Below, in pieces: positions 5,875-59,234 of a stretch of 64,000 bases of DNA (positions are counted from its first letter, which is position 1; each line of letters opens with the position of its first letter). Made by a program: the position numbers and the translations under genes. Under the pieces are notes generated by a model. It was not told the DNA's origin and searched no databases. It saw only the letters and a list, made by a program, of their open reading frames with translations. The stretch comes from Longimicrobiales bacterium (GTDB lineage: Bacteria; Gemmatimonadota; Gemmatimonadetes; Longimicrobiales; Gaopeijiaceae): NCBI GenBank assembly GCA_951828585.1, contig OX639991.1, positions 4,074,001-4,138,000 of the forward strand, given 5' to 3'.

Positions 5875-5923
5875 GCCGGACCACTTCACCGCTGCGCAGG
5901 GTTTCGCCACAGGCTGTTACTCG

Positions 5924-15214: not shown

Positions 15215-15261
15215 GTATGTAATGTCTACTTTACATAATGTAAACTGTAGTATACATTATG
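15215..15261. promoter_or_regulatory. A+T-rich double palindrome between convergent genes
   Basis: In a G+C-rich background, this stretch contains TTTACAT-A-ATGTAAA (15230-15244), a perfect 7-bp inverted repeat around one base, followed by a GTATAC palindrome and CAT-T-ATG. It lies between the copCD stop and the channel gene and overlaps the latter's stop codon. The core TTACATAATGTAA plus a following AGTATACAT recurs at 59328-59353. ACAT/ATGT half-sites resemble operators of PadR-type repressors, but a location between two gene ends is odd for an operator. Role unknown. Confidence 0.5.
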
Positions 15262-17915: not shown

Positions 17916-19370
17916 ATGCCAGCCAACCGCATGCCCCTGCCCTCCATGCGCGTCTGTGTCGCCGCGCTCCTGTTGTTCTGCGCCCCTCCGCTCCAGGCCC
18001 AGCACGAAGACCGCATCTGGGGGCGCGTCTTCACCGAGGGCGGCGAGGTGCATGAAGGGTTCATTCACGTGGTCCGATGGCGAGCCGCTGCAAGCTGGGC
18101 CGATGTGCTCACCGCCTTGAAGGAGATCCCGGAGGAGCACTACCAGGACTGGCTCAATGCGACGCGCGATGGGGAACCCCACGTCGGCACTGTGGAGCTC
18201 AAGGGCTACAGGATCACCTGGGAACAGAAACACCCGGCATTCGAACGGCCCCAACTTTCAGGGATTCGTCTCGGTCACATAGCCGTGCTGACGATCGGTG
18301 AAGAGGAGAAGGTGCATTTGGTGACCCGCTCACATCGCGACACACGATTCGAACCGGGCGATACCGTAGTCGCTGAGGATGCAGTCGACGTGGGCGCCGT
18401 GGGCATGTGGGGGTGGGTTGATCACATGATGACTCTTACCTGGAGCTGGAACAACACGTCGCTTCGAATCGAGAATCAAGGTCGCCGGATCGAGGTGGAT
18501 GGCGAGGACGTGGCTCGCATCGAGTTCGGCGCGCCCCTTTCCGGTTCCGCACACGGTTCCCCCCGGTTGTACGGCACCGTGGAGGACCGCAGCGGCCGCT
18601 CGTTCACGGGATTCGTGACGTGGAACCGGCGCCAGGTCCTGGAGTCGCAGTCGCTGACAGGCACTTGGCAGGATGTTCCCGAGCTGGCAAACCCATGGGA
18701 ATCAGACGAATACAAACGTTCTTTCCGCTTCTCCGAGATCCGGTCGCTGGAGCGCACGCCGTGCTTCGCGAAGGTGACCCTGAAATCGGACACGGTCATG
18801 GAGTTGTGCTACAAGCCATTTGAGTCGGATCCGCGGCCGGTCCAGATCTCCGATCCCGAGCTTGGGTTGGTCGAGGTCGACTGGGACGCAGTGCGGACCC
18901 TGCGTTTCGAGCCCTCGCCCGGCCTCCCGGGCTACGACGCATTCGACGGAGGTCGCCTTCTGTCCGGGACGGTCGTCACCCGCGACGGCGAAGAGATCAC
19001 TGGCCGGATCCGATGGGATGCCGACGAGGAGTGGTCCTGGGAGCTGCTGCAGGGAGCCTCGGACGGTGTCGATTTCTCGATCGAATTCGGGTACATCACG
19101 CGCATCGAGCGGCAGGAGTCCGAGGGGGCGCGCGTGACGTTGCGGGACGGGCGGTCCTTCCACCTGACGGGCGGATATGACGTCGGCAGGGACAACCGGG
19201 GCATCTTCATTTTCCCCGCGCCGACGGAAGGAGCGGCAGACGGGGCGGTGGAGGACCCGGCGGAGGGGCCGGGGGTCGGCAAGCCCGAACCGGAGGGGCG
19301 CTACGTCGCCTGGGAGGACTTCCATGAAGTGCGCTTCCATCCGGTCGGGAAAAGGGGGGCCGGGTCGTGA
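17916..19370 (+). CDS. Secreted repeat protein of unknown function
   Basis: Predicted exported protein of about 484 residues with a signal peptide (MRVCVAALLLFCAPPLQAQ). The body repeats a motif of the form 'G-x-V-x-x-[DE]-G-x-x-x-x-G-x-[IV]-x-W': GRVFTEGGEVHEGFIHVVRW, LYGTVEDRSGRSFTGFVTW and LSGTVVTRDGEEITGRIRWD, each followed by a region ending in a charged FSEIRSLER-like strand. This suggests three to four related beta domains. The start could be the ATG at 17916, 17931 or 17946; none has a clear SD. Its stop overlaps the GTG of the downstream Omp85-like gene by 4 nt (GTGA), so the two are probably translationally coupled and may act together at the outer membrane. No named family recognised. 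Confidence 0.75.
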   Translation: MPANRMPLPSMRVCVAALLLFCAPPLQAQHEDRIWGRVFTEGGEVHEGFIHVVRWRAAASWADVLTALKEIPEEHYQDWLNATRDGEPHVGTVELKGYRITWEQKHPAFERPQLSGIRLGHIAVLTIGEEEKVHLVTRSHRDTRFEPGDTVVAEDAVDVGAVGMWGWVDHMMTLTWSWNNTSLRIENQGRRIEVDGEDVARIEFGAPLSGSAHGSPRLYGTVEDRSGRSFTGFVTWNRRQVLESQSLTGTWQDVPELANPWESDEYKRSFRFSEIRSLERTPCFAKVTLKSDTVMELCYKPFESDPRPVQISDPELGLVEVDWDAVRTLRFEPSPGLPGYDAFDGGRLLSGTVVTRDGEEITGRIRWDADEEWSWELLQGASDGVDFSIEFGYITRIERQESEGARVTLRDGRSFHLTGGYDVGRDNRGIFIFPAPTEGAADGAVEDPAEGPGVGKPEPEGRYVAWEDFHEVRFHPVGKRGAGS

Positions 19371-21652
19371 GGATGCTTCTCCTCGCGGTCGCGGTTTCGG
19401 CCGCCTTCTCAGCTTCCCGACCCGCCCGCGCCCAACAGGACTTCGCCCCCGACACCTTCGAGGACTCCGTGGCGCAACAGTTGTACACCGCGGCCCGCGC
19501 GAGCTGGAAGACCCTCGACGAGTCGATTCTGCGCTACTCGGCCGTAATCCGCCAACGGACCGCAGCGGCGATCCGGGCCCTCTTCAGGGACCGCGTCGTC
19601 TACCACAACGAGACGGCGGTGCGCGCCTTCTGGGAGCGGGACCACCAGCCGGTCGTGCAGGTCCTCGGCACCCGGTCCGAGTATCCCGGGAGAGAGATCG
19701 CAATGCGCGAAGGCGACATGGACTGGCTCGACGACCTCCCCTTCGACGAGCCCTTCGACCCCGGCAGCGACCGGCTCTTCTTCGGGATAGCCGACATAGA
19801 CGACGAGCCCTTCGAGCCCGCCGATGACGAATTCTGGGTCGCCCATCCCCTGGGCGAGGGCGCCGATTCCCTCTACCGCTTCAGGAGCGGCGACACCCTG
19901 ACGCTATCCTTCCATGACGGCCGCCGTCTTCAGGCGATCCAGCTGGATGTCCTTGCCCGCGAAGCCGACGCCAGCCGCATCAGCGGCGCACTCTGGATCG
20001 AACCCGAGACCGGTGCGCTGGTACGGGCCGTGTATCGGCTGAGCCGCGAGTTCGACGCCACGCGCGACATTCCGGACCTCCGCCGAGAAGAAGAGCGCGG
20101 GACCCTCAGATTCATCCCCGGGCTCTTCAAGCCCTGGACCTTCGACCTCACCGTGATCGCGGTGGACTACTCGCTGTGGGACTTCAAGGCCTGGCTTCCC
20201 CACAGCATGCGCATCGAGGGCAAGGCAGCCGCGGGGATTCTCAAGTTCCCCGTCTCCATGGATGTGTCCTACCAGATCGAGTCGGTGACCCTGGCAGATA
20301 GCGAAGACCCGGACGCGGCCGTCAGTGCGGATCAGACCTTCGAGCCGCCCCTCAAGCACGTGCACTTCAAGACCCGCGAGGAGGCGCTGGCGTTTGTCGC
20401 CGAGTTGCTCTCGGAGGATGAAGGGATTGAATACGAGACCCTCATTGAGGGGCGCTCGCGGCCGATGATCGCCCCGAAGGAGCGCCATCTCGTCGCCGAG
20501 AGCCCCCAGCTTCCTCCCCCGATCTGGAAGGACGCGGTCGGATTCCCGTCCGACGCGGAACTGGAGCGGTTCATCAATAAGCTGGCCGACCTGCCGGCGC
20601 CGACCGTCGCCCAGGCAGCGTTCGGCTTCCATTGGGGATGGGCGCGTCCGGATCTCATCCGCTACAACCGCGTGGAGGGACCCGCCTTCGGGGGCCGCCT
20701 CGAATGGGCGCTGGGACAGAGATTCTCCCTGGGCACTTCGGGCTTCTTTGGATTGGCCGACCTGAGGCCCAAGGTCCGCCTCGACCTGCAACGCTCGACC
20801 ATGCTGCGCAGGCTGTCGCTTGGAGCCTTTCACGAACTCCGGGCGACCGATGCCGACGGCAGATACCTCGACTTCGGCAACTCGGCGAACGCCTTCCTCT
20901 TCGGACGCGACAACGGCGAGTACTACCGGGCCACCGGCGCCGATCTGACCTGGCGTCCGCCGGAGGGTGAGCGCGAGTCGTTCACATTCCGCGCCTACGC
21001 GGAGCGGCAGCGTGCGGTCGGGAACGAGATCGACTTCGCCCTCTTCCGCGCATTCGATGGTGACGGGACCTTCCGTCCCAACATCGAGGCGGACCGTGTC
21101 GAGGAGGCGGGGGCGGAACTGCGGCTGTCGCCGTGGTGGGGCAACGACCCCGGCGGCGTACAACTCGGCGTCGATCTGCACGGTCGCTGGGCGATGTGGC
21201 GGGTGCCGGGAGAGGATCCGCGGACCGACTACCAGCAGGCCAGTGGCACGCTCCGCGCCATCATCCCCGTCGCCGGTGACGGGTGGCGGCGGTGGAACCT
21301 CGGCTTCGAGGCGGCGGCCGGAACCACCTGGGGCGACGCACCCCTGCAGCGCTCCTGGTTCCTGGGCGGGGGAAGTTCGCTGCGGGGGTATTCGGCCTCC
21401 GTCCTGTCGGGCCCGTCCTTCGCGCGGGGCCGGGTCGAGGTGTCGCGCCTCTTCGAAGCCGGATCCTCGATCCTCTTCGGCGACGTGGGCTGGGCCGGGG
21501 ATCGAAGCGACATCGACAGAGACGACATTCTCTACGGGGTGGGTCTCGGCGGAAGCCTCCTGGACGGCCTCATCCGACTGGATTTCTCGCACGGGCTCAA
21601 GGGGCCGCACAAGGGATTCCGGGTCGACCTGTACCTGGACGCGATTCTGTAG
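19367..21652 (+). CDS. Omp85-superfamily-like outer membrane protein (paralogue 1)
   Basis: The 761-residue exported protein has a signal peptide (LLLAVAVSAAFSASRPARAQ), an N-terminal ~400-residue soluble region and a C-terminal beta-barrel-like region of alternating aromatic/charged strands. Near the end is WFLGGGSSLRGYSASVLSG, which resembles the RGF/RGY loop-6 motif of Omp85/BamA/surface-antigen barrels, and it closes on a terminal strand DLYLDAIL. The N-terminal part contains ISGALWIEPETGALVRAVYR and WDFKAWLPHSMRIEGKAAAG, which could be a LolA/RseB-like lipid-binding fold (inference). It aligns along its length with the protein at 25819-28155 (shared YHNETAVRAFW, PLG-GAD-LYRFRS-DT, RYNRVEGPA-GGR-EWA). 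Coupled to the upstream secreted-protein gene by GTGA. Substrate unknown. Confidence 0.8.
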   Translation: MRMLLLAVAVSAAFSASRPARAQQDFAPDTFEDSVAQQLYTAARASWKTLDESILRYSAVIRQRTAAAIRALFRDRVVYHNETAVRAFWERDHQPVVQVLGTRSEYPGREIAMREGDMDWLDDLPFDEPFDPGSDRLFFGIADIDDEPFEPADDEFWVAHPLGEGADSLYRFRSGDTLTLSFHDGRRLQAIQLDVLAREADASRISGALWIEPETGALVRAVYRLSREFDATRDIPDLRREEERGTLRFIPGLFKPWTFDLTVIAVDYSLWDFKAWLPHSMRIEGKAAAGILKFPVSMDVSYQIESVTLADSEDPDAAVSADQTFEPPLKHVHFKTREEALAFVAELLSEDEGIEYETLIEGRSRPMIAPKERHLVAESPQLPPPIWKDAVGFPSDAELERFINKLADLPAPTVAQAAFGFHWGWARPDLIRYNRVEGPAFGGRLEWALGQRFSLGTSGFFGLADLRPKVRLDLQRSTMLRRLSLGAFHELRATDADGRYLDFGNSANAFLFGRDNGEYYRATGADLTWRPPEGERESFTFRAYAERQRAVGNEIDFALFRAFDGDGTFRPNIEADRVEEAGAELRLSPWWGNDPGGVQLGVDLHGRWAMWRVPGEDPRTDYQQASGTLRAIIPVAGDGWRRWNLGFEAAAGTTWGDAPLQRSWFLGGGSSLRGYSASVLSGPSFARGRVEVSRLFEAGSSILFGDVGWAGDRSDIDRDDILYGVGLGGSLLDGLIRLDFSHGLKGPHKGFRVDLYLDAIL

Positions 21653-24645: not shown

Positions 24646-25560
24646 TCAGAGGATCGTCTTCCCAAGCGCGGAGCCTACCAGGCCCACCGCCAGGACAGCC
24701 GTGTGGTTGCGGTCGTCCAGGACGGGGTTGAGTTCCACCACTTCAAGGCTGAGCAGCCGGCCCGAGCGCGCCGCCTTCTCACATACGAGGTGACCTTCAC
24801 GATACGTCAGACCGCCCTGTACAGGCGTCCCCACCCCCGGCGCGACGCGCGGATCGAGCGCGTCGAGATCGAGGGACAGGTGGAACCCGGCGGTTCCGGC
24901 GTTGGCGCGCTCCAGGGCCTCGTCCATGCAGCTGGCGACTCCCCTTTCGTCGATCTCCGACATCGTGAACACCCGTACGCCCAGACCGGCGATGAGCTTC
25001 CTTTCACCCCCGTCCAGTTCGCGGGCGCCCAGGACGCTCGCGTTCTCCGGTTTGACGCTGGGGAACCGCCGGGTGAGGCGCGGGTGGCCGTTGCCGAGGA
25101 GGACCGCCAGCGACATGCCGTGGATGTTGCCGCTTGGTGTGGTCTCGGGGCGGTTCATGTCCGCGTGCGCGTCCACCCAGATCACGCCGACGGACTGGTC
25201 TCGCCGCCGGTAGTGTTCCGCCACCGCCGACACCGAACCGATCGAAAGCGAGTGGTCTCCGCCCAGGACGAGTGGGAAGCAGCCGCCCTCGAGGCCCGCC
25301 CTGACCACCTCCCGGGTTCGCCCCACCACGCTCTCGATCTCGTCAAGGAAGCGCAGGGCACTCTCGCCGGCCTCGGTCGTCTCCAGTCCCCCAGCGGTAA
25401 TGGTGCCGTATTCGGTCACCCGGTGCCCAATGGATTCGAGTTCGCGCGTGATGCCAGCGATCCGCAGGGCCGAAGGTCCCATGTCGACGCCCCGGCGGCC
25501 CGCGCCCAGGTCGATCGATACGGACACCAGAGCGATGTCGCGTGGTGTAGGCTGCTTCAT
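24646..25560 (-). CDS. rocF: Arginase
   Basis: Mn(II)-dependent hydrolysis of L-arginine to ornithine and urea. The 304 residues match arginases. The metal-binding motifs are complete: LVLGGDHSLSIGSVSAVAEH, VIWVDAHADMNRPETTPSGN (with the arginase-specific SGNIHGMSLAVLLG), and HLSLDLDALDPRVAPGVGTP; EVVELNPVLDDRN closes the active site. Agmatinases and formiminoglutamases share the metal motifs but not the PSGNIHG loop. The ATG at 25560 starts just before the family core; the longer frame runs into the duplicated regulatory module. It is divergent from the Omp85-like gene at 25819 and followed by the ABC genes. Confidence 0.94.
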   Translation of the reverse strand: MKQPTPRDIALVSVSIDLGAGRRGVDMGPSALRIAGITRELESIGHRVTEYGTITAGGLETTEAGESALRFLDEIESVVGRTREVVRAGLEGGCFPLVLGGDHSLSIGSVSAVAEHYRRRDQSVGVIWVDAHADMNRPETTPSGNIHGMSLAVLLGNGHPRLTRRFPSVKPENASVLGARELDGGERKLIAGLGVRVFTMSEIDERGVASCMDEALERANAGTAGFHLSLDLDALDPRVAPGVGTPVQGGLTYREGHLVCEKAARSGRLLSLEVVELNPVLDDRNHTAVLAVGLVGSALGKTIL

Positions 25561-25657: not shown

Positions 25658-25782
25658 ATCCCCGCGGGTGGTTCCAGACAACTGTAGACACTACAATGCT
25701 CCTCATTCGTAGCAGGCCGGGTGCGGTTGGCTGACGGCATGACCGTGGGAACGGCACCGCACAAGATAGTCCCTTCCAAGAT
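25658..25782. promoter_or_regulatory. Copy A of a duplicated ~125-bp upstream module
   Basis: This stretch matches 28205-28328 closely along its length, with shared blocks GGTGGTTCCAGACAAC, GACACTAC, TAGGCCGGGTGC-type (AGGCCGGGTGC) and GATAGTCCCTTCCAA. It lies between arginase (minus) and the Omp85-like gene (plus), 37 nt before the latter's ATG. It contains TGTAG-ACA-CTACA, a perfect 5-bp inverted repeat. TTCCAG and AATGCT 17 nt apart are the positions that in copy B read TTCCAG and TATAGT. A shared promoter/leader is the simplest reading; not proven. Confidence 0.6.
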
Positions 25783-25818
25783 ACGGAGGAGCAACCCCGT
25801 GGAGGGTACTCCAGCCTG

Positions 25819-28155
25819 ATGCCGAGTGTTCGTCGCCGCAGCGGCGGTCCGTTGCCCATGGCTCTACTGTTGTCCGGAGCCGTCGCGTTCCTGGTGCCGG
25901 CGATCGCCACCTCTCAGCCTCCGCCAGCGCAGACCCGCTTCGCCGACGACGCGTTTCTGGATCCGGTCGCCCGCGAACTCTTCACCATCGCGTTCGACGG
26001 ATGGAGCGAACTCGGCGAGAACATCGAACGCTACACCGCGCGGATCGACCAGCGCATGGCGGTGGGCCTGCGTACGCGGGGGAGGGACCGGGCAATCTAC
26101 CACAACGAGACGGCGGTGCGCGCTTTCTGGGGACGGGACCGGCTGCCGATCGTGCAGCTTCTCGGTGCGCGCTCCCGATACCCCGGGCGCGGCATCGTCA
26201 TGCGCGCAGCGAACCTGGGCTGGCTCGAGGAACTTCCCTTCGACGGGCCGTTCGCGCCTGGCAGGGACCAGCTCTTCGTCGGCTCGGGCGAAGGCGCCGG
26301 GTACTTCATTCCCGCGGACGACGACTACCTGACGCACCCACTCGGCCAGGGAGCGGACACGCTCTACCGTTTTCGGAGCCGTGACACCACCACGATCTCC
26401 TTCCCCGACGGGAGCCGTTTGGCCGCTGTCCGGCTCGATGTGATTCCCCGGGCGTCGGCCCCCTACCGGATCAGCGGGACGCTCTGGATCGATCCGGCGA
26501 GCGGCGCCCTCGTGCGGGGCGTCTACCGCGTGAGCAGGCGCCTCGACATGGCCCGGGAATTCCCGGAGGACATCGGCAAGACGATCCAGTACCGCCTGGT
26601 TCCCGGCTTTCTGAAACCGCTCACCGTCGACGTTCAAGTGGTTGCGGTGGACTACTCCCTTCTGGATTTCGACATGTGGCTGCCACGTACGGTCCGCTTC
26701 GAGGGCCAGGTGGCCGCGGGTGTCCTCAAGATCCCGATATCGATCGACTATGCGTACCGGATCGAGTCGGTGACGCGGAGGGACGAGACCGCGGCGGCGG
26801 GCGGGGAGGAAAGGCCTGGAGGTGAGACCCTGGAGGAGGTCCGGTTCGAAACCAAGGCTGACGAGGTGGCCTTCATCGCGCGGCTCCTGTCCGAGGAGGG
26901 TGAAGTCAGCTACCGGCCCATCTCCGACGAGGAATTCGATCCCGAGCAGCAGGCCATTCCATTGCGCTGGATCGCGCCGGTCGACCCCGGCGTGCTGGAG
27001 GACAGCCCCCACCTGCCTCCGCCGATCTGGGAGAATGCGCCCGGATTCCTGTCGGACAGCGACGTGGACGAGTACATGCGGCTCCTGGCGGATATACCCG
27101 CGGCCCCGGTGCGGGGGGTCGACCTGGATTTCAACCTGGGCTGGGCGCGACCGAATCTGCTTCGTTACAACCGGGTCGAGGGACCCGCCGTGGGCGGGCG
27201 GTTCGAGTGGGCCATGCATGGGTCGTACAGTCTCGGTACCGCGGTGTTTTTCGGATTCGCGGACCGGAGGGCGAAGGTACGGCTGGATGTGGAGCGGTCC
27301 ACCGTGCTCCGCCGCCTCAAGCTCGGCGCCTACCATGAGCTTCGCGCGACCGATTTCGAAAGCGGATATCTCGGCATCGGCAATTCGCTCGGCGCGTTCC
27401 TCTTCGGGCGCGACAACGGGGAGTACTTCTTCGCGACCGGGACTGACCTCACCTGGCGACCGGCGGCGATCGCACGGCAGTCCTTCTCCCTTCGGGCCTA
27501 CGCCGAGCGCCACGGGCCCGCCGAGTCCAACGCCGGGTTCGCGCTGCTGCGGATCGGCGACGAGGCATGGGGTTTCCGGCCCAACCTGGCGGCTGAAGAG
27601 GTGGAGGAGGTTGGGTGCGAGCTGCGTCTATCGCCGCGGTGGGGGAGGGACTCCGAACGGGCCGTGGGCGGGATCGATTTCTTCGGACGAACCGCCGCGT
27701 GGTGGCAAGCGGGAGATGAAGCCCGCGAGAGCTACGGTCAGGCGAGCGCAACCCTGATGGCAACCCTCTCGCTGCGGGGGAGCGGCTGGCGGCGCTCGCG
27801 TATTGCGGTCGAAGCCGCTGGCGGACACACGTGGGGGCGAGCTCCGATCCAGCGTTCCTGGTTCCTGGGAGGCCCCGGGAGTCTGCGCGGCTACCCCGCC
27901 TCGGAACTGGCGGGTCTCTCGTTCCTGACGGGCCGGATCGAACTTGCGGCAACCTTCGAAGGACTCGGCGGAAGCCTGTTCGGCGACGCGGGGTGGGCAG
28001 GCCCTGCCGACGACTTCAACTCCGGGGACATTCTGTTCGGGATCGGCGCGGGCGTAAGCATATTGGACGGCGTCGTTCGCATCGATCTGTCACGGGGCCT
28101 CGAAGAGCCAGGGAGGGGGATTCGAATCGAAGCCCATGTGGATGCGATCCTGTAG
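25819..28155 (+). CDS. Omp85-superfamily-like outer membrane protein (paralogue 2)
   Basis: The 778-residue exported protein is paralogous to the product of 19367-21652 over its full length. A signal peptide (PMALLLSGAVAFLVPAIATSQ) is followed by the ~400-residue soluble region, with YHNETAVRAFWGRDRLPIVQ, RISGTLWIDPASGALVRGVY and LLDFDMWLPRTVRFEGQVAA. The C-terminal barrel-like half carries RSWFLGGPGSLRGYPASELA (RGY loop motif) and ends HVDAIL. The start is the ATG at 25819; a second ATG at 25858, nearer the hydrophobic core, is possible. Its upstream region is the duplicated module that also precedes the amidohydrolase gene at 28342. Likely role: outer-membrane assembly, secretion or lipid handling; not determinable from sequence. 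Confidence 0.8.
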   Translation: MPSVRRRSGGPLPMALLLSGAVAFLVPAIATSQPPPAQTRFADDAFLDPVARELFTIAFDGWSELGENIERYTARIDQRMAVGLRTRGRDRAIYHNETAVRAFWGRDRLPIVQLLGARSRYPGRGIVMRAANLGWLEELPFDGPFAPGRDQLFVGSGEGAGYFIPADDDYLTHPLGQGADTLYRFRSRDTTTISFPDGSRLAAVRLDVIPRASAPYRISGTLWIDPASGALVRGVYRVSRRLDMAREFPEDIGKTIQYRLVPGFLKPLTVDVQVVAVDYSLLDFDMWLPRTVRFEGQVAAGVLKIPISIDYAYRIESVTRRDETAAAGGEERPGGETLEEVRFETKADEVAFIARLLSEEGEVSYRPISDEEFDPEQQAIPLRWIAPVDPGVLEDSPHLPPPIWENAPGFLSDSDVDEYMRLLADIPAAPVRGVDLDFNLGWARPNLLRYNRVEGPAVGGRFEWAMHGSYSLGTAVFFGFADRRAKVRLDVERSTVLRRLKLGAYHELRATDFESGYLGIGNSLGAFLFGRDNGEYFFATGTDLTWRPAAIARQSFSLRAYAERHGPAESNAGFALLRIGDEAWGFRPNLAAEEVEEVGCELRLSPRWGRDSERAVGGIDFFGRTAAWWQAGDEARESYGQASATLMATLSLRGSGWRRSRIAVEAAGGHTWGRAPIQRSWFLGGPGSLRGYPASELAGLSFLTGRIELAATFEGLGGSLFGDAGWAGPADDFNSGDILFGIGAGVSILDGVVRIDLSRGLEEPGRGIRIEAHVDAIL

Positions 28156-28204
28156 GGGCCACGCCCGACGACCAGGGGGGGGCTCCCTTCAACCACGGCC
28201 TCGA

Positions 28205-28328
28205 ATCCCCCGCAGGTGGTTCCAGACAACCGTTGACACTACTATAGTCCTCGTTCGCTGTAGGCCGGGTGCCGTCGCTGCCGCCAGGATCGTCCGACAG
28301 CACCGCGGAAGATAGTCCCTTCCAACAT
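28205..28328 (+). promoter_or_regulatory. Copy B of the duplicated ~125-bp upstream module, before the amidohydrolase gene
   Basis: Near-copy of 25658-25782, ending 13 nt before the ATG at 28342. It contains TTGACA (28233-28238) and TATAGT (28243-28248); a TTCCAG hexamer 17 nt upstream of TATAGT would give a conventional -35/-10 spacing. Conservation extends downstream through GATAGTCCCTTCCAA, into what would be the 5' untranslated leader. Two unrelated coding sequences share it, so it looks like a moved regulatory cassette rather than gene duplication. Confidence 0.6.
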
Positions 28329-28341
28329 ATGGATTCTGCGC

Positions 28342-31300
28342 ATGCGCTACTTCAAGAGCGGCCCCTGGACGGCCGCGCTGCTGCTCCTCGCTCCCCTCGC
28401 CCTCCAGGCCCAGGAGGAGGAGAAGCTGGACCCCGACCGGGGCCTTCCCCTTGAACCTGCCCGCTGGGCGCGCTTCACGACCAACGAGGGGACATGGATC
28501 TCCCTCGACGTGAGCCCGGACGGCCAGACGATCGTCTTCGACCTGGTCGGCGACCTCTACTCGATGCCCGTCACCGGGGGCGAGGCGACACGGCTGACCA
28601 GCGGCATGGGCTACGACATGCAGCCCCGGTTCAGCCCGGACGGAGAGCAGATCGTCTTCGTCTCGGACCGGAGCGGCGACAACAACGTCTGGCTGATGCC
28701 CGCCGCCGGAGGGGAACCGCGGCAGCTGAGCAAGGGAGTCGGGAGTTACTTCCTGTCGCCCGACTGGATGCCCGACGGCAAGTACGTGATCGTGTCCAGG
28801 GCCGCTGGCGTCGGCCCATTCGGGGGCCTTGAGAAGCTCTGGCTCTACCATATCGACGGCGGCACCGGACTGGAGATGGTGGGGGGGAGTGCGGGCCTGC
28901 GCATGCTGGGCGCGGCGGTCGACGGTGAAGGCCGCTACATCTGGTACGCGCAGCGCAACGGGACCTGGCAGTACAACGCCATCTTCCCGCAGTACCAGGT
29001 CTGGATGTACGACCGAAAGACGGGCACCCGGACGCCGATGACCAATCGTTACGGCTCGGCGTTCCGGCCCGTGCTCTCGCCGGACGGACAACTCCTGGCC
29101 TACGGAAGCCGTGACGACGCCGACACCGGAATCCGGCTCCGCGAGCTCGACTCGGGGAAGGAGCGGTGGCTCGCCTACCCGATCCAGCGCGACGACATGG
29201 AGTCGACGGCGTCGATGGACGTGCTGCCCGGCTACTCCTTCACCCCCGACTCGGAAGCGCTGGTGATCTCCTACGGCGGGGGGATATGGCGGGTGCCGGT
29301 GGACGGAAGCGATCCCACCGAGATCCCCTTCACCGTGAACGCGGAGGTCGCGATCGGGCCCGAGGTGGAGTTCGAGTACCCGATCGAGGACACGCCGACC
29401 TTCACGGTCAAGCAGATCCGCGACGCGCGTCCCTCCCCCGACGGAAGCACGATCGCCTTCACCGCGCTGGACCGGCTGTACGTCGCGGACCTCCCCGACG
29501 GCACCCCGCGCCGCCTGACCAGCGACGAGGTCGGCGAGTTCCAGCCGATCTGGTCGCCCGACGGACAGCAGGTCGCCTACGTGACCTGGGACCAGGACGC
29601 CGGCGAAGGCCACATCCGGCGCGTCTCCGCCAGCGGTGGCTCTTCCACCAACCTGACGACCATCCCGGCGTACTATCAGCAGCTCGCCTGGTCGCCCGAC
29701 GGCGAGCGCATCGTCGCGGTCCGCTCGACGGCACGGACGGTCCGGGAGTCGCTCGGCACGTCCGCCTCCACCCAGGCGGCGGAGTTCATCTGGATCCCCT
29801 CCACGGGCGGCGAGGAAACCGTGATCGGCCCCACGCTCGGCCGGCGCGCACCGCACTTCACCCAGGATCCGGATCGCATCTACTACTACGGCACCGTGCG
29901 GGCGGACCCGATCCCCGGGTCCCCACCCTCCCCGGCGGGCTTCGGCACCGCGCTCTCGTCGGCGCGCTGGGACGACACCGACAAGCGCGGGCACCTGAGC
30001 GTGACGGCCCGCGCCAACATTTCGGCGGGCAGTTTCCGCAGCGGTTCCAGGCGCTCCGAGACCAGCGACCTGGTGTTGCCACAGGAGGATTTCGACGAGA
30101 GGGAACCCAGCGAGATAGACATCCGTTTCGGGGCCGGCCTGATCCAGATGGCCCCCCGGGGAGACATGGCGCTCGCGGCGGTGGGCGATGACCTGTACGC
30201 GGTTCTGGTTCCCGACGTGGGGCCGGCCGTGCCCACCATCGAGGTCGGCAAGCCGGACTCGGCCGCGGTCCCCGCCTTCAAGCTCAACGATCTGGGCGTG
30301 GAATTCCCCAGCTGGGGCGCGGATGGGCGCACCGTTCACTGGTGGCTCGGCAACGCGCTCTTCACCTACGACCTGGACGCGGCCGCGGGGGATCCCGACT
30401 ACGCCCCGTCCGAGCAGCAGATCATGGTGACCGCCGAGCGCGACATCCCTGAGGGGACGGTCGTGTTGCGCGGCGCGCGCGCGATCACCATGAACGGCGA
30501 CGAGATCGTCGAGAACGCCGACGTCGTGGTCACGAACAACCGGATCGCGTCGGTTTCGGCGGGACCGGGGGAGGTGCCCGAAGGGGCGACCGTGATCGAT
30601 GTCGCGGGCAAGACGATCGTCCCGGGCTTCGTGGACACCCACGCGCACATGTGGAACCTGTGGACCTTCCACTGGGCGCGTTCCTGGATCTACGACGCCA
30701 ACCTGGCCTACGGTGTGACCACGACCCGCGACCCCCAGACCGCCACCACCGATGTGCTCTCCTACGAGGATCTGGTGCGCGCCGGGCGAATGACCGGGCC
30801 GCGCGTCTACTCTACCGGCCCGGGGGTCTTCTCCCAGGACTTCATCCGCAGCTACGAGCACGCGCTGGACGTGCTCACCAAGTACAGCCGCTACTACGAC
30901 ACCAAGACCTTCAAGATGTACATGACGGGCAACCGCCGACAGCGCCAGTGGCTGATCATGGCCGCTCGCGAACTCGGGCTCATGCCCACCACCGAGGGCG
31001 GGCTGGAATACCGCCTCAACCTGACCCACGCGATCGACGGCTACCCCGGGATCGAACACTCACTCCCGATCGTGCCGGCCTACAGCGACGTGGTGGAGCT
31101 CTTCGCGGAATCGGGGACCGTGAATTCGCCCACGCTGCTGGTCACCTACGGCGGCCCCTGGGTGGAGAACTACTTCTACACGCGCTGGGACATCTTCGGC
31201 GACGAGAAGCTGACCCACTTCACGCCCCGGCGCGAGCTCGACATCAAGGCGCGGCGCCTCCAGACCGACGGGCCCGGACAGGGCGCCTGGTTCATGGAGG

Positions 31301-31734
31301 ACGAGTATGCGCACCCGAAGCACTCCGCTTGGCTGGCACAGCTCGTCGAGGGCGGCGGCCGCACGGGCGTGGGCAGCCACGGTCAGCTGCAGGGTCTGGG
31401 CTTCCACTGGGAGCTGTGGGCCATGCAGAGCGGCGGGATGAGCGAACACGACGCGCTTCGGGCCGCGACGCTGATGGGCGCCGAGGCGATCGGGCTGGGC
31501 GGCGACCTGGGTTCGATCGAGCCCGGGAAGCTGGCCGACCTGGTGATCCTCGACGCGAATCCGCTCGACAACATCCGCAACACGAACACGGTGTACCAGG
31601 TGATGATGAACGGACGGCTCTACGACGGAGACACACTCGACGAGCTCTGGCCCCGGCAGCGACCTGCGCCGTACGAAGCATGGAGATACGTCGCGCCGAA
31701 TGTCAGCGCCGGGATGAAGGGAGGTGCCCGATGA
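28342..31734 (+). CDS. Giant secreted PD40-propeller amidohydrolase (paralogue 1)
   Basis: The 1130-residue exported protein has a signal peptide (AALLLLAPLALQAQ). TolB/PD40-type WD-like repeats fill about residues 45-690 (WISLDVSPDGQTIVFDLVGD, QPRFSPDGEQIVFVSDRSGD, FQPIWSPDGQQVAYVTWDQD). An amidohydrolase (urease/dihydroorotase superfamily) domain follows from about residue 705: metal motif GFVDTHAHMWNLW near 764, YGVTTTRDPQTATTD, GYPGIEHSLPIVPAYSD, GVGSHGQLQGLGFHWELW and IEPGKLADLVILDANPLD. Such enzymes are usually assigned to peptide/imide hydrolysis; the substrate is unknown. The stop overlaps the next gene by 4 nt (ATGA). An almost duplicate promoter module lies immediately upstream. Confidence 0.9.
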   Translation: MRYFKSGPWTAALLLLAPLALQAQEEEKLDPDRGLPLEPARWARFTTNEGTWISLDVSPDGQTIVFDLVGDLYSMPVTGGEATRLTSGMGYDMQPRFSPDGEQIVFVSDRSGDNNVWLMPAAGGEPRQLSKGVGSYFLSPDWMPDGKYVIVSRAAGVGPFGGLEKLWLYHIDGGTGLEMVGGSAGLRMLGAAVDGEGRYIWYAQRNGTWQYNAIFPQYQVWMYDRKTGTRTPMTNRYGSAFRPVLSPDGQLLAYGSRDDADTGIRLRELDSGKERWLAYPIQRDDMESTASMDVLPGYSFTPDSEALVISYGGGIWRVPVDGSDPTEIPFTVNAEVAIGPEVEFEYPIEDTPTFTVKQIRDARPSPDGSTIAFTALDRLYVADLPDGTPRRLTSDEVGEFQPIWSPDGQQVAYVTWDQDAGEGHIRRVSASGGSSTNLTTIPAYYQQLAWSPDGERIVAVRSTARTVRESLGTSASTQAAEFIWIPSTGGEETVIGPTLGRRAPHFTQDPDRIYYYGTVRADPIPGSPPSPAGFGTALSSARWDDTDKRGHLSVTARANISAGSFRSGSRRSETSDLVLPQEDFDEREPSEIDIRFGAGLIQMAPRGDMALAAVGDDLYAVLVPDVGPAVPTIEVGKPDSAAVPAFKLNDLGVEFPSWGADGRTVHWWLGNALFTYDLDAAAGDPDYAPSEQQIMVTAERDIPEGTVVLRGARAITMNGDEIVENADVVVTNNRIASVSAGPGEVPEGATVIDVAGKTIVPGFVDTHAHMWNLWTFHWARSWIYDANLAYGVTTTRDPQTATTDVLSYEDLVRAGRMTGPRVYSTGPGVFSQDFIRSYEHALDVLTKYSRYYDTKTFKMYMTGNRRQRQWLIMAARELGLMPTTEGGLEYRLNLTHAIDGYPGIEHSLPIVPAYSDVVELFAESGTVNSPTLLVTYGGPWVENYFYTRWDIFGDEKLTHFTPRRELDIKARRLQTDGPGQGAWFMEDEYAHPKHSAWLAQLVEGGGRTGVGSHGQLQGLGFHWELWAMQSGGMSEHDALRAATLMGAEAIGLGGDLGSIEPGKLADLVILDANPLDNIRNTNTVYQVMMNGRLYDGDTLDELWPRQRPAPYEAWRYVAPNVSAGMKGGAR

Positions 31735-34700
31735 GCCCCCGCACGAAGTTCCTCGGATCGGCGGCCCTGGCGTTTCTCGCGCTCGCGGTGCTGAACGCGC
31801 CCGTGGAGGCCCAGCGGCCGAGCGGACGACCGAATCCCCTTCCACTGCGCAGCGCGCGGACGGCCGAATTCACGGCCACGGAAGGGACCTGGATCTCGCT
31901 GGACGTGAGCCCCGACGGGCAAATGATCGTTTTCGACCTCCTGGGCGACCTCTACACCATGCCCATCACGGGGGGCGAGGCATCGCCGCTTCTGACCGGG
32001 ATGGCCTACGAGGTGCAGCCCCGCTTCTCGCCGGACGGCGAGTCGGTGGTGTTCGTCTCCGACCGCAGTGGAGGGGACAACATCTGGACGATGCGGCTCG
32101 ACCGCACCGACACCACCCAGGTCTCGCGCGGCAACAACAACCTCTACCTGTCACCCGAGTGGGAGCCCGGCGGCGAGTTCGTGGTTGCGAGCCGCTCGGG
32201 CGGACTGGGAGGTGCGGCACAACTGGTCATGCTCAACGCCGAGCGGGGCACCCCGGTGGCGCTGAGCGGCGTCGCCGGCGGCAAGTCCGTCGGCGCGGCG
32301 TTCAGCCCCGACGGACGCTATCTCTGGTACGCCAGGTCGTTCTCGGACTGGACCTACAATGCCACCTTCCCGCTGTACCAGGTGTACCGGTACGACCGCG
32401 AGCGGGCTTCCAGTTCGCTCATGACCAGCCGGTACGGCTCGGCCATGCGGCCCGCGATCTCGCCCGACGGGCAGTGGCTCGTCTACGCCACGCGCTGGGG
32501 CACCGAGACCGGCCTGCGCAAACGCAACCTCGCGACGGGCAGCGAGGAGTGGCTGGCTTACCCCGTGCAGCGTGACGAACAGGAGTCACGGGCGCCGCTG
32601 GACGTGATGCCGGGCTACTCCTTCACGCCCGACGGTTCGGCGATCGTGATTTCGTACGGAGGCAAGATCTGGAACGTGCCGATGGACGGAAGCGACCCGA
32701 CCGAGGTCCCCTTCGAGGTCCCGGTCAAGCTCGCGATCGGTCCCGAGGTGAAGTTCGCCTACCAGGTGGACACGACCGCGATGGTCACCGCGAGTCAGGT
32801 CCGCACCCCGGTGGCGTCCCCGACGGGTGACCGGATGGTCTTCACCGCATTCGACCGCCTCTGGGTTCAGGCCATGCCCGATGGGGAACCGACGCGGCTC
32901 ACCGAAGCGGACGCGGGCGAATTCCACCCTCAGTGGTCGCCCGATGGACAGTGGATCGCGTACGTGACCTGGGACGACGCCGAGGGTGGCCACATCATGA
33001 AGGTGGCGGCCTCCGGCGGCGCACCCGTCCAGCTCTCCGCCACCCCGGGGGCCTACTCGAACGTGGCCTGGGCGCCCGGCGGCGACCGCGTGGTCGCTAC
33101 GCGGAGTGCCGCGGGTGACCTGCTGGCAGGTTCCGGCCTCTTCGCCGGGCCGCTTGGCGGAGCATTCGTATGGGTGCCGTCGGCAGGCATCGAACCCGCC
33201 GAGCCCGAGGTGATCTCACCCACCGGTTTTCGCGACGTGATGCACTTCGCGGCCGACGAGCCCGACCGGATCTACGCCTACAGCCCGATCGAGGGGCTGG
33301 TGTCGTTCCGCTGGGACGGGACCGACGTGAAGAGCCATCTCCTGGTAAGGGGGATGGTGGGTGCGCCCGGGATCGGCGACCCGCACCCGGATCAGTGGGA
33401 ATACCTGCCCAGGCGGGTGTTCCCGTGGCGAAAGGCACCCGATCCGACCGATCCCGAGCAGGATCCTCCCGCCGAACCGGGTTTCCCGCAGCCCGCCGGG
33501 CTGGTGATCCTGTCACCCCAGGGCGACCGGGCCCTCGCCCAGATCGCAAGGGACATCTACGTGGTGGACCTGCCGGAGGCGGGGTCGCAGCCGGCCTCCA
33601 TCGTGACCACGCCGGGGACATCGCGCAAGCTGACCGCTGTCGGCGGGGAGTTCCCGTCGTGGGCGCCGGACGGCACTTCCGTGCACTGGTCGCTGGGGAA
33701 CGTGCTGTTCTCCTATGACCTGGACTTCGTGGAGGCTGAGGAGGCCGAGGCGAAGGAGATACGTCACGCCCGGAGGCTGATTCGCGCCCGGGCCATCGCC
33801 GTGTCCGACACGCTGAAGAAGAAGCGCGCCGAGGCGGACAGTATCAAGAATGCCGACGAGGAGGTCTCCGACTCGCTCGAAGCGGAGATCGCGCGGCTCG
33901 CCGGCGACTCGGTGCAGGTGGTGGCCGATTCGCTCTTGGCGCGCGCCGATTCGATCCGCGCGGCCGCCGAGGAGTACGCGGACAAGGCCGGCAGGATCCG
34001 CGAGGGCGACAAGGAGATTCTGGAAGATTCAACCGAGTCCTACGAGGCGAAGGAGCGGAAGATCGAGGCCAAGCTGCCGCGGGATGTCCCGCGCGGCACG
34101 GTCGCGCTCACGGGGGGGCGCATCATCACGATGGCGGAAGTCCCGGGCGATACCACCGGGGAACCCCACGTGATCGAGAACGGGGTGGTGGTCGTCACCG
34201 ACAACAGGATCGTGGAGGTCGGGATGGCCGATTCGGTCGAGATCCCGGACAGCGCGGTGGTGATCGATGTGGCCGGCAAGACGCTCGTGCCCGGGTTCAT
34301 CGACACGCACTACCACGCACAATGGCTCGTCCCCGAGGTCCATCCCGAGGAGGTCTGGCAGTACCTGTCCACCCTGTCCTACGGCGTCACGACCACGCGA
34401 GACCCGCAGACCGCGGTCACCGACATCCTGAGCTACACCGACCGCGTGCTCACGGGCGGCATGACCGGGCCCCGCATCTACTCGACCGGCCCGGGTGTCT
34501 TCAGCAGCGAGAATATACGGGACGCCGATCACGCGAAGACCATCCTGAGGCGCTACGCCCAGTACTTCGACACGAAGACGCTCAAGATGTACATGAGCGG
34601 AAACCGCCAGCAGCGGCAGTGGATCATCCAGGCGGCCCGCGAACTGAAGCTGATGCCCACCACCGAAGGCGGCCTCGACTTCAAGATCGACATCACGCAC

Positions 34701-35411
34701 GCCATTGACGGGTATTCCGGGATCGAGCACAACCTGCCGATCACACCGATCTACTCCGACGTGGTGGAACTATTCGAGGAATCGGGAACCACAAACTCCC
34801 CTACACTCCTGGTGTCGTACGGGGGACCGTTTGGCGAGAACTACTACTACGTCACCGAGAACCCGCACGACGACGAGAAGCTCAACGTGTTCGCGCCCGC
34901 GGACTACATGGACGCGAGGACGCGACGGCGCGGTCCCGGAGCCGGGGGCAGCCCGGGCGCGGCCGGCTGGTTCCTGGAAGAGGAACACGTCTTCCCCCGC
35001 CACGCTGAATTCGTGAAGAAGATGCTCGAGGCCGACGGCCGCATGGGCGTGGGCAGCCACGGGCAGCTGCAGGGCGTCGGGTACCACTGGGAGATGTGGG
35101 CCATGGGGGCCGGCGGCGCGACCCCCCACGACATCCTCAGGGCGGCTACGATCCTGGGCGCCGAGGCGATCGGTTTCGGAGCCCATCTGGGGAGCATCGA
35201 GAAGGACAAGTTCGCCGACATCGTGGTGTTGAACTCGAACCCGCTCGACGAGCTGCGTAATACCGTGGACATTCGCTACGTGATGAAGGACGGCCGGCTG
35301 TACGACGGCATGACGCTGAACGAAGTGTATCCGGAGGAACGGACGCTGGAGCGGCAACGGCCCACGGAGCAGGATGCCGGCAGCGCCGCGGCGGGGATAC
35401 GGAAGCGGTAG
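31731..35411 (+). CDS. Giant secreted PD40-propeller amidohydrolase with a charged helical insertion (paralogue 2)
   Basis: The 1226-residue paralogue is translationally coupled to the previous gene (ATGA). Signal peptide: LGSAALAFLALAVLNAPVEAQ. The PD40 propeller covers about residues 40-660 (WISLDVSPDGQMIVFDLLGD, QPRFSPDGESVVFVSDRSGG). The amidohydrolase domain contains FIDTHYHAQWLVPEVHPEEV near residue 858, YGVTTTRDPQTAVTDILSY, GYSGIEHNLPITPIYSDVVE, GVGSHGQLQGVGYHWEMW and LGSIEKDKFADIVVLNSNPL. Between the two lies a ~110-residue Glu/Lys/Arg/Ala-rich, probably coiled-coil insertion (about residues 665-780) that paralogue 1 lacks. A 15-bp-stem hairpin follows the stop. Confidence 0.9.
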   Translation: MSPRTKFLGSAALAFLALAVLNAPVEAQRPSGRPNPLPLRSARTAEFTATEGTWISLDVSPDGQMIVFDLLGDLYTMPITGGEASPLLTGMAYEVQPRFSPDGESVVFVSDRSGGDNIWTMRLDRTDTTQVSRGNNNLYLSPEWEPGGEFVVASRSGGLGGAAQLVMLNAERGTPVALSGVAGGKSVGAAFSPDGRYLWYARSFSDWTYNATFPLYQVYRYDRERASSSLMTSRYGSAMRPAISPDGQWLVYATRWGTETGLRKRNLATGSEEWLAYPVQRDEQESRAPLDVMPGYSFTPDGSAIVISYGGKIWNVPMDGSDPTEVPFEVPVKLAIGPEVKFAYQVDTTAMVTASQVRTPVASPTGDRMVFTAFDRLWVQAMPDGEPTRLTEADAGEFHPQWSPDGQWIAYVTWDDAEGGHIMKVAASGGAPVQLSATPGAYSNVAWAPGGDRVVATRSAAGDLLAGSGLFAGPLGGAFVWVPSAGIEPAEPEVISPTGFRDVMHFAADEPDRIYAYSPIEGLVSFRWDGTDVKSHLLVRGMVGAPGIGDPHPDQWEYLPRRVFPWRKAPDPTDPEQDPPAEPGFPQPAGLVILSPQGDRALAQIARDIYVVDLPEAGSQPASIVTTPGTSRKLTAVGGEFPSWAPDGTSVHWSLGNVLFSYDLDFVEAEEAEAKEIRHARRLIRARAIAVSDTLKKKRAEADSIKNADEEVSDSLEAEIARLAGDSVQVVADSLLARADSIRAAAEEYADKAGRIREGDKEILEDSTESYEAKERKIEAKLPRDVPRGTVALTGGRIITMAEVPGDTTGEPHVIENGVVVVTDNRIVEVGMADSVEIPDSAVVIDVAGKTLVPGFIDTHYHAQWLVPEVHPEEVWQYLSTLSYGVTTTRDPQTAVTDILSYTDRVLTGGMTGPRIYSTGPGVFSSENIRDADHAKTILRRYAQYFDTKTLKMYMSGNRQQRQWIIQAARELKLMPTTEGGLDFKIDITHAIDGYSGIEHNLPITPIYSDVVELFEESGTTNSPTLLVSYGGPFGENYYYVTENPHDDEKLNVFAPADYMDARTRRRGPGAGGSPGAAGWFLEEEHVFPRHAEFVKKMLEADGRMGVGSHGQLQGVGYHWEMWAMGAGGATPHDILRAATILGAEAIGFGAHLGSIEKDKFADIVVLNSNPLDELRNTVDIRYVMKDGRLYDGMTLNEVYPEERTLERQRPTEQDAGSAAAGIRKR

Positions 35412-35431
35412 GAGGACTCACTCAGCACGAA

Positions 35432-35469
35432 AGCGGCCCGCGCGGGACATGTTTCCCGCGCGGGCCGCT
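35432..35469. terminator. Strong hairpin between convergent genes, probable bidirectional terminator
   Basis: AGCGGCCCGCGCGGG (35432-35446) and its perfect complement CCCGCGCGGGCCGCT (35455-35469) form a 15-bp G+C stem with an 8-nt loop, ACATGTTT. It is followed by CGCTTTC rather than a long T tract. It lies 20 nt after the stop of the amidohydrolase gene and 29 nt from the stop of the convergent plug-protein gene, so it probably serves both transcripts. Confidence 0.75.
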
Positions 35470-35498
35470 CGCTTTCGGGCGCCGTGGAAGTTCCCGCC

Positions 35499-36542
35499 TC
35501 AGCGACGCGTCCAGATCAGGATGACCCCACAGGCCGCCCCCGTCGAACTGTACTGCGCCGGCATGCCCGCGGTGGACGGGTAGATCTCGACGCCCGCAAC
35601 CACGCCGGGCGTGAGAAGGTGGTCGATGCCGGCCGGTTCGTCTCCGCCCCGGTGAACCAGGATGTCGTCGAGATAGACGCGCGGGTAACAGAAGTTCCCG
35701 TCCAGGTCCCCAATCCGGCCGCTGCGGAGAACAATCGACTTGTCGATGCCCTGCGCGTGCACGAGCACCCCGGGGAGGCCCTGGAACATGTCCGTCATCT
35801 CGGCGGGTCCGCGGAACTCGATGTCCTCGCGATCGATGAACTCTCCGAACCCCTCGGACTGGCGCTCATAGAACCCGGTCTTCTGCAACGCGACTTCACG
35901 TCTCTCCACCACGACCTCCAGGGGTGCAAGCTGCACCGGATCCACCGAGAGGGAAGCCTGAACGTTGGTCACGCGGCCCCGAATCACCTCGATCGAGTCC
36001 GACCTCGTCGCGTAGCCGAATTGCGAGAAGCCGATCACGTGCCAGCCGGCCGCCAGCTCCTCCAGCATGAAGCGGCCCCGCCCGTCCGTCAGCGTACCCC
36101 CCTGACCCCCGTCCAGCTGCACCCGCGCCCCGGCCAGAGGAGCTCCGGTATACCCGTCGGACAGCACACCCATGATCCCGGTGATGACCTCGCTCCCCGA
36201 GAGGATGACCGGAGCCATCGACGTTTGGAAGCCTCCGGCACGGAACACGTTGAAGTCGCCTACCGCCGGATTGTACTCGGGGTGGGTAAGCTGGAGCCGA
36301 TACCCGCCGATCGCGATTCGGTTCACCGTGAACTCCCCGGCGGCGTTGGTCTCGAAACGAAGGCCCGTCCCCTCCAACACCACCGCTACCCCCGCGATGG
36401 GTCCCCCGGTCACCGCATCGATCACCTTGCCGGTGATGGCGACGAATTCACGTTCGGGCGCCTGTGCCGTCACTGCGCCGGCCCCCGTATGAAGCGCTAT
36501 GGCGAGACACGCCAACAAACTCGGGAATCGCAAGATTCGCAT
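35499..36542 (-). CDS. Plug-only TonB-like protein with two CRL domains (paralogue B)
   Basis: The 347-residue exported protein has a signal peptide (SLLACLAIALHTGAGAVTAQA). Two carboxypeptidase-regulatory-like beta-sandwiches lie at about residues 34-115 (ITGKVIDAVTGGPIAGVAVV) and 120-205 (ITGIMGVLSDGYTGAPLAGA). A TonB-receptor plug domain then runs to the C-terminus (FIDREDIEFRGPAEMTDMFQ, GLPGVLVHAQ, PRVYLDDILVHRG, GVEIYPSTAGMPAQYS), ending ACGVILIWTRR. In ordinary receptors this strand leads into a ~500-residue barrel; here the protein stops. The ATG at 36542 has GAGGAGG 7 nt upstream. It follows the third amidohydrolase by 4 nt. Function unknown; a secreted ligand-binding or regulatory plug is one possibility. 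Confidence 0.85.
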   Translation of the reverse strand: MRILRFPSLLACLAIALHTGAGAVTAQAPEREFVAITGKVIDAVTGGPIAGVAVVLEGTGLRFETNAAGEFTVNRIAIGGYRLQLTHPEYNPAVGDFNVFRAGGFQTSMAPVILSGSEVITGIMGVLSDGYTGAPLAGARVQLDGGQGGTLTDGRGRFMLEELAAGWHVIGFSQFGYATRSDSIEVIRGRVTNVQASLSVDPVQLAPLEVVVERREVALQKTGFYERQSEGFGEFIDREDIEFRGPAEMTDMFQGLPGVLVHAQGIDKSIVLRSGRIGDLDGNFCYPRVYLDDILVHRGGDEPAGIDHLLTPGVVAGVEIYPSTAGMPAQYSSTGAACGVILIWTRR

Positions 36543-36546
36543 CACT

Positions 36547-39500
36547 TTACCTCCTCTGTGATTGCCCTGTATCGGGAGGCTCCACCCTCCACCACCACTG
36601 CGTGGGGAGCGGCCTCCGGCGGGGCCAGACCTCGGTGAGCGTAGCCGCATCGTACAGGCGGCCGTTCTTCATTACATATTCGATGTCTATCGTGTTCTCC
36701 AGGTTGTCCAGCGGGTTGGACCCCAGAACCTGCAGGTCCGCCAGCTTCCCCGCTTCGAGCGATCCCAGATCGCCCGCCAGCCCGATCGCATCGGCGCTCA
36801 TCAACGTCGCCATGCGCAGCGCGTCGTGGTTGTCCATGCCCCCGGACGCCATCATCCAGAGCTCCCAGTGCGTGCCCAGGCCCTGGACCTCGCCGTGGGA
36901 ACCCAGTCCGGCCTGTCCCCCCGCATCCATCCACTTGACCAATTGCTCGGCTTGCTGGAAGTGCGGGTACTGGTCGTCGCGGTACCAGGTCGTGGTCTTC
37001 CACTTGTCAAGTTCGTCGTGCGGGGTGAAGAAGCGCAATCTCTCGACCTCGTCCAGGTTGGTGCGCGTCAGGTAGTACTGGCGCCCCGAAGGCCCCCCGT
37101 AGGCGACGATGAGGGTGGGTGTGTAGACCATCCCGCTGAAGGCGCCCAACTGGACGACATCGCGGTAGAAGGGGCTGATCGGCAGGGAGTGTTCGAGGCC
37201 GGCGTAGCCGTCCTGGGCCAGCGTCAGGTTCATGGTGAAGTTGGAGCCGCCTTCGGTGGTGGGAGTGAGGCCCAGTTCGCGGGCCGCCATGATGACCCAC
37301 TGCCGCACGTTGCGGTCACCCGCCATGTACTGCTTGATCGTGAGCGTGTTGAAGTGGTCGGAGTAGCGCCGAAGCACATCGCGGGCGTCGTCGAGGCTGG
37401 AGATGGCATCGCGACTGAACACGCCGGGACCGGTCGAGTAGATGCGCGGCCCGATCATCTCGCCCGTCTCCATCAGGTCGCTGTAGGTGACGACATCCTC
37501 CGACGACGTCTGGGGGTCGCGCTGCGTGGTCACGCCGTAGGCCAGCTGCGCCAGGAACTGTGAGACCTGGCCGCGGTGTACTCCCCAGGCAACCCAGGTG
37601 TGGGCGTGAATGTCGACCAGCCCGGGCAGAATGGTCCTGCCGGACATGTCGCGCACCTCCGCGCCCCCGGGGATATCCACGCTCCCGCTGGGGCCCACGG
37701 CGACGATACGGTTGTCCCGCACGACGATGTCGCCGCGGGGGATCACCTCGTCGCCGCGCATGGTGATCAAACGCGCCCCGCTCAGAACGACCGTGCCTCG
37801 CGGCTTGTCCTTGGGGACCGTGATCTCCACATCGTAGCGGGCCGCCTCGTAGACCGGGCCGTCCTCGTCGGCGTCCTCTTCCTCCTCCTCGGCCACGATG
37901 ACATCGGCGGAGTCCCCGGCTGGCGCGTCGGCAGTGTCCGGACTCTCCGCTTCGGCTCGCCGCTCGGCTCGCGCGTTGGCCACGGAATCGGCCACCAGGG
38001 AGTCGCTCAACGCCACATCGTGCAGGAAGAAGCTGCGCCCGATGGAGTAGAAGCCGGCCGAACCGTCCTGGTTCCAGCCCACGAAATCGCCGCCGATCCT
38101 CGTAAGCCGGCGGGTGGGCATGGAGGAAGAGGAGGCGACCGACACGGTGGGCGCCTGGCCTCCCGCCGGCGGCACCGTGATCATGTACACGTTGCGGTTG
38201 GCCCGCACCATGGCGCGCTTGCCGTCCGGGGAAAGCACGACCTCGTCGGGTGCGCCGCCTGCCCCGGGGCCCCCACCCGACGGGGCGGCCACCTTGACGA
38301 CGGTGTGGATGTCGGTGCCGTCGTAGCGCATGGACAGAAGTCCTTCGGAACCCGTCCACACATAGATGCGGTCAGGGTCCGGTCCCGGGTGCGGCGCGTT
38401 GCGCCCTTGCTGGGTCGCGCCCCGCCCGACCCACGCGATCCGCGTCGGCTCTCCGCCCTCGGCCGGCAGCCACACGTACTCGAGTTCGGCGGCGGGACCG
38501 TGGAAGCCGAAGTCCTCGAGCGTGCGCATGCGGTGCATCTTCGAGCCACGCACGGCCAGGATGCGCGTCCCGTCACCGTTGTATGCCACCCGGTCGAAGA
38601 ATGCGGAGGCGGTGGTCAGCTTCTCCGGTTCCCCACCTCCGTCGGTGCGCACCCGCCAGATGTCGCCGCCGGTGGAGTCGTTCCAGGTCACATAGGCGAT
38701 ATGGCGTCCGTCCGGGGACCATACCGGGCCGTGCTCGACGTCGGCGGAGGAGGTAAGGCGGCGGGCGTCGCGAATGTGCGGGTAGCCCTCCGTCTGCGTC
38801 CCGGCGGGCTCGGACAGGGGGCCGATCCAGAGCCGGTCCAGGGCCGTGAAGACCAGTTGGCGGCCATCGGGAGAAGGGCGGGCGCCCCGGATCTGGGAGA
38901 CGGTCAGCGTGGAGTCGTTGATCGGATAGTCGAACTTCACGAGCGGACCGAGCTCCTGCTGGACGCGCGCCGTGAAGGGGATCTCGGCCGCCTCCCCCGA
39001 AGGCACTTCCACCCGCATGATCCTGCCGCCATAACTCGTAATCAATGCGCGCGAATCCGGCGTCCAGGCCGAGCCCGGATAGTTGTCCCGGTCACGCGCT
39101 CCCCCACCCTGCGAGTCGTCGCGCTGAACGTCCATGACGAGCCAGGTCTCTTCGCCGCTTGCCAGATCGCGCAGCCGGAGCGCCGGTCGCGCGTCGTAGC
39201 GGGTGGCGTACACCAGCCAGCGTCCGTCGGGGCTCGGCATCGGCCGGAAGGCACCTTCGTGTTCGTGCGTACGGACGAAGGTGCCCCCGGTCACGCGGTC
39301 GAGCAGGGCGATCTGGTAGTCCCCGATCTGGCGGGCCGAGCTGCGGGGCGAGTGGTCCGGGCCGAAGTCGCTCGGGTCGGTTTCCACACCGGACGCGGAC
39401 GCGGCCGGGAATCCCCCTCCCAGATTGCCGCGCACATTCACCCACAGGTAGCGGGGATCGGAGCCGAACGCGGCACCGATGTGGGATGGAGGAATCGGGC

Positions 39501-59145: not shown

Positions 59146-59234
59146 CGAGGGGTCTCGGGGTTGGGGGGGGGTGTGAGGATGGTGGCGCTGAAAGCTGGCC
59201 TCCTCGCTGCCGGGGTGGAAGACTGCGGGGACCA

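Follow-up and report, generated by a model that had tools for sequence, protein, structure and literature searches.

How does one upstream sequence come to stand before two unrelated neighbouring genes? In the stretch of 64,000 nucleotides that we analysed from a Longimicrobiales bacterium (hereafter the window), two copies of a module precede the genes omp2 and amh1 (Table 1). An earlier note on this DNA had placed near-copies at 25658-25782 and 28205-28328, and a BLAST search of the whole genome recovers them at essentially these positions, with 80% identity over 126-128 bp (E 1.2e-25). Identity across the central 107 aligned columns is 77%, and GGTGGTTCCAGACAAC and GATAGTCCCTTCCAA are identical in the two copies. 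The next best match in the genome has an E value of 0.16, which places the pair far beyond chance. Homology between the copies stops at about 25789, inside GGAGGAG, and no homology was found in the flanks outside the module, where local alignments of the left and right sides score no better than shuffles. A larger segmental duplication reaching beyond the module was rejected, since the outer flanks are non-homologous and are unique among the loci compared.

The genes behind the copies are indeed unrelated, as the note had supposed. The gene order in the window is omp1, an FAA-hydrolase-family gene, a tRNA gene, an ABC permease and ATPase pair (minus strand), arginase, copy 1, omp2, copy 2, amh1 and amh2. 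Family searches identify the arginase, the FAA hydrolase and the ABC ATPase, and find PD40 plus amidohydrolase in both amh1 and amh2. The omp2 product matches Pfam Omp85 weakly (E 0.009, below the cut-off); its AlphaFold2 model (pLDDT 76) matches BamA/TamA barrels with a Foldseek E value of about 1e-9, and the predicted C-terminal barrel would place the protein in the Omp85 superfamily. The two amidohydrolase genes probably form an operon. Three PD40-amidohydrolase paralogues are clustered in 28342-39901, the third on the minus strand at about 36.6-39.9 kb, as judged from inverted repeats. Where the leader of copy 1 meets omp2, a mini-ORF of 6 codons (GTG GAG GGT ACT CCA GCC TGA) overlaps the omp2 ATG, and the translation of the two may be coupled.

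Table 1. Positions of the module copies, their conserved cores and the surrounding genes in the window.
Feature	Position	Strand	Description
omp1	19367..21652	+	Resident Omp85-like paralogue; follows the species grouping
Arginase gene	24646..25560	-	Divergent; directly opposite amh1 across the single-copy module in close relatives
Module copy 1	25660..25789	+	Putative promoter region and leader, now 5' of omp2
Core, copy 1	25668..25711	+	GTGGTT 25668-25673; GACACTACAAT 25687-25697 (TACAAT 25692-25697); CGTA 25708-25711
Junction of copy 1 leader and omp2	25785..25821	+	GGAGGAG 25785-25791; mini-ORF 25799-25819; omp2 ATG 25819-25821
omp2	25819..28155	+	Omp85-type barrel protein, 778 aa; phylogenetically foreign
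Module copy 2	28208..28333	+	Putative amh1 promoter region and leader; corresponds in position to the single copy of G019, G007 and G013
Core, copy 2	28216..28259	+	GTGGTT 28216-28221; GACACTACTAT 28235-28245 (TACTAT 28240-28245); degenerate CGCT 28256-28259 replaces CGTA
amh1	28342..31734	+	Secreted PD40-amidohydrolase; ancestral owner of the promoter
amh2	31731..35411	+	Paralogue of amh1; start overlaps the amh1 stop

Relatives of the organism preserve a simpler arrangement. We mapped the proteins of the window onto 20 regions; the public records of congeners are metagenome-assembled genomes labelled Gemmatimonadota or Longimicrobiales. In three near relatives (G019, G007 and G013) the module occurs once and ends at the amh1 start codon, and in every congener with a readable site the arginase gene lies opposite amh1 and amh2 with no omp gene between. 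The omp genes of the congeners lie upstream of the FAA hydrolase instead; among genomes of the genus with a readable site, only that of the window (G000) has one between arginase and amh1. Judged by its position, the congener module is the putative promoter region of amh1, set between the divergent arginase gene and amh1-amh2. In the same three relatives (L105:10403-10526 and the equivalents in L106 and L110) the reading frame of arginase extends into the core of the amh1 promoter and has a GTG in frame there; the start of the divergent arginase gene may thus overlap with that promoter.

The best explanation, in our judgement, is promoter capture, and we consider it likely that omp2 obtained its promoter through local duplication of the one resident at amh1. 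The module would be the old promoter and leader of amh1-amh2, held between the divergent arginase gene and amh1 throughout the genus. omp2, coming from another congener lineage or as a relict paralogue kept only in G000, would have entered the arginase-amh1 spacer. The local putative promoter and leader are now double, with copy 1 joined about 30 nt before the omp2 start codon and copy 2 still before amh1. Such a duplication would provide omp2 with the same initiation signals as amh1-amh2, and omp2 and amh1 may be co-regulated. The event itself would have been a tandem duplication (with loss) or a single-crossover insertion. A resident, single-copy ancestor of the captured promoter is present at this site in the three near relatives, and its core occurs genus-wide. 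The age of the promoter and its single occurrence in the genome of each relative point to local promoter duplication rather than to a mobile regulatory cassette.

The conserved part of the module resembles a promoter, as the earlier note had proposed, and a footprint obtained independently from relatives agrees with this. Upstream regions of amh1 from about 22 species, aligned on the core, share a footprint of about 48 bp, (T/G)TGGNC-N11-NTGACACTANNAT-N10-CGTA. The information content is 1.54 bits per base in the central 13 bp, 0.72-0.92 in the preceding 18 bp, 0.83 in the CGTA block and 0.2-0.3 in the flanks, and a 10/13 match to the core arises in 0.8% of shuffled upstream regions. Allowing at most one mismatch, TGACACTANNAT-N10-CGTA matches once per genome in 11 other congeners; the reversed controls lie near zero. 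Ten of these 11 matches lie just 5' of amh1 by coordinates; the eleventh (G020), at a contig end on the same contig as the G020 omp gene, is consistent with that placement. In one relative (G042) the footprint is kept with no arginase gene within 1.5 kb upstream, which indicates that the footprint goes with amh1. The single off-site match in the genome of the window (C1:2747257) falls inside a 168-aa open frame, and when two mismatches are allowed in this genome the reversed-pattern control gives similar numbers. The core is predicted to be an active promoter, and its presence at equivalent positions in both copies makes shared control of omp2 and amh1 plausible.

It is less simple to say what kind of promoter this would be. 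A simple consensus scan finds no sigma-70 promoter above threshold, the upstream regions of tRNA genes yield no clear promoter motif, and a literature search found no work on promoter motifs or transcription starts in Gemmatimonadota. (T/G)TGG and TANNAT fit a sigma-70-type layout with weak hexamers, GACAC and CGTA fit an ECF-type layout, and neither layout accounts for all blocks of the footprint. With modest confidence we favour a sigma-70-type promoter with extra determinants. The core resembles such promoters in having (T/G)TGGNC, a distance of 18 nt and a TANNAT invariant at T, A, A and T, but differs from them in an extra invariant AC before the -10, in the conserved GACAC and CGTA, and in its weak -35 consensus. 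A -10 of the CGTA type is known from ECF-sigma promoters such as those of Bacillus sigma-W. The core might instead be an ECF-sigma promoter (TGACAC-N16-CGTA) or the operator of a regulator dedicated to this one operon, a possibility that is compatible with promoter capture and that we entertain only tentatively. The conserved GACAC and CGTA, which are spaced as in ECF-type promoters (16 nt) and left unaccounted for by the -35/-10 reading, speak in its favour, as does the single motif match per congener genome; the invariant TANNAT positions and the sigma-70-like placement of the (T/G)TGG block speak against it. An ECF promoter would also leave the TANNAT and TTGG blocks unaccounted for, and CGTA is degenerate in several members, its exact form being absent from copy 2, G003 and G019. 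We are doubtful of the wider proposal that a dedicated factor, either an ECF sigma or a single regulator, binds the core and serves one operon per genome in this genus, such that the duplication recruited a foreign outer-membrane barrel into that regulon.

The trees suggest that omp2 came from elsewhere. In the omp protein tree omp2 groups (100/100) with the tandem-array omp genes of G012, G021, G008, G022 and G005, and omp1 groups with those of G019, G007, G013, G003 and G015. Trees of rpoB place the genome of the window with G007 and G013, next to G003 and G015 (100/100), and away from G012, G008 and G005; omp2 is thus phylogenetically foreign by comparison of the two trees. The upstream regions of omp homologues elsewhere contain no module. 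Given the tree conflict and the module-free homologues, omp2 was most likely acquired from another congener clade, and we infer transfer. The alternative, that omp2 is a relict paralogue which every near relative has lost, is less parsimonious. Import of the promoter together with omp2 from the donor lineage was rejected, as the relatives of omp2 lack the module and the G012-type spacer is different. A plasmid origin was likewise rejected (no match in PLSDB), and a first scan of a genome collection with omp2 gave no match. In the amh1 coding tree, G000, G019 and G013 fall with the G012 clade (99.7/99), against rpoB, and arginase does not behave in this way; this conflict makes it probable that genes had been exchanged at the amh1 locus before. 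Window comparison of amh1 gave no clear mosaic breakpoint.

The capture would be an old one. At the four-fold sites of amh1, G000 is 23-28% different from G019, G013 and G007, which suggests that the duplication is about as old as the split of G000 from these three. Since the copies are themselves already 20-23% diverged, no fresh junction or target-site signature is visible. Among the sites that distinguish the copies and at which the three relatives are uniform, copy 1 has the derived state at 15 and copy 2 at 6, and copy 1 appears to have changed faster. Both copies resemble the local (G019-type) promoter and not the G012 type. The module tree pairs copy 1 with copy 2 at 59% bootstrap without rejecting other topologies, and the insertion may therefore have preceded the separation of G000 and G019, with loss in G019. 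On this rather improbable account, the ancestor shared by G000 and G019 would already have carried the module joined to omp2, and G019, G007 and G013 would have lost omp2 by recombination between the copies, a deletion that direct repeats flanking a gene favour. Identity over the compared block is 77% both between the copies and between copy 2 and G019, but 67% between copy 1 and G019, which speaks for this account. Nevertheless, the best tree pairs the two copies, 11 sites of the block are common to both against all three relatives, and loss requires one more event.

The earlier note also saw in the module a transferable cassette or small repeated element with a structured leader, and neither idea holds up well. 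It is very unlikely that a structured leader RNA (a riboswitch, thermometer or attenuator) was copied with the promoter and that the leader up to GATAGTCCCTTCCAA is functional. The two copies, G019, G007 and G013 have similar leaders, and a hairpin can be drawn in each, but there is no match in Rfam and single-sequence folds have ordinary z-scores (-1.1 and +0.65). Covariance analysis of a five-sequence consensus gives an unfavourable covariation term of +2.56 with many broken pairs. Moreover, conservation of the leader ends at the nearest relatives, while that of the promoter core reaches farther; the leader is most readily understood as a passenger of the putative promoter. A small element that copies itself before unrelated genes, as a mobile promoter would, is most improbable: near-copies do precede two non-homologous genes, but these two are adjacent and undispersed beyond the one locus, no third copy was found in the 4.47-Mb genome, the flanks of the copies lack common ends, and copy 1 matches only the amh1 promoters of the three near relatives among 121 family genomes, with no second case of an omp gene at the site. 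Where nearly the same upstream region stands before unrelated genes, it has been described as a putatively mobile promoter or as promoter propagation (Matus-Garcia 2012, as cited in PMC9208149 and PMC8049555). As far as those citing accounts describe them, such promoters resemble the present pair in standing before non-homologous genes of one genome; the module differs in having just two adjacent copies and a clear single-copy ancestral owner, amh1.

The window contains other repeats. One repeat, about 174 bp long and with CCCGTGGACAAA-type ends, occurs as three tandem copies at 5345-5874 and as one inverted copy 54 kb away at 59228-59469, and the arginase-amh1 spacer of one congener (G004) holds a sequence similar to it, with inverted ends. 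This repeat may be a small mobile element of the non-autonomous kind. Palindromic, AT-rich repeats of the TTACATAATGTAA type (family D19) lie at 15217-15278 and 59314-59354, and we take these to resemble BlaI/MecI-type operators. A 21-bp tandem repeat of about 20 copies (family D1) occupies 5901-6341.

Precedent for promoter capture exists in E. coli, where tandem duplication with promoter capture has been found experimentally to activate horizontally transferred genes (PMC11111574 and work cited there). The likeness is that a foreign or silent gene comes to lie behind a copy of a neighbouring resident promoter, the original of which still drives its own gene. The omp2 case differs in being old and natural, reconstructed by comparison, with a junction that can no longer be read.

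In summary, the duplication of a resident operon promoter around omp2, a gene that seems to have been acquired, is real, well bounded and ordinary in kind. The locus offers a clean natural case, recognised by genome comparison alone, of how a gene new to a site can come by a promoter already resident there. The lesson for such repeats is that a pair of them in upstream regions can reflect the local duplication of a promoter rather than a mobile cassette. As a by-product, the comparison provides a deeply conserved promoter footprint for Gemmatimonadota.
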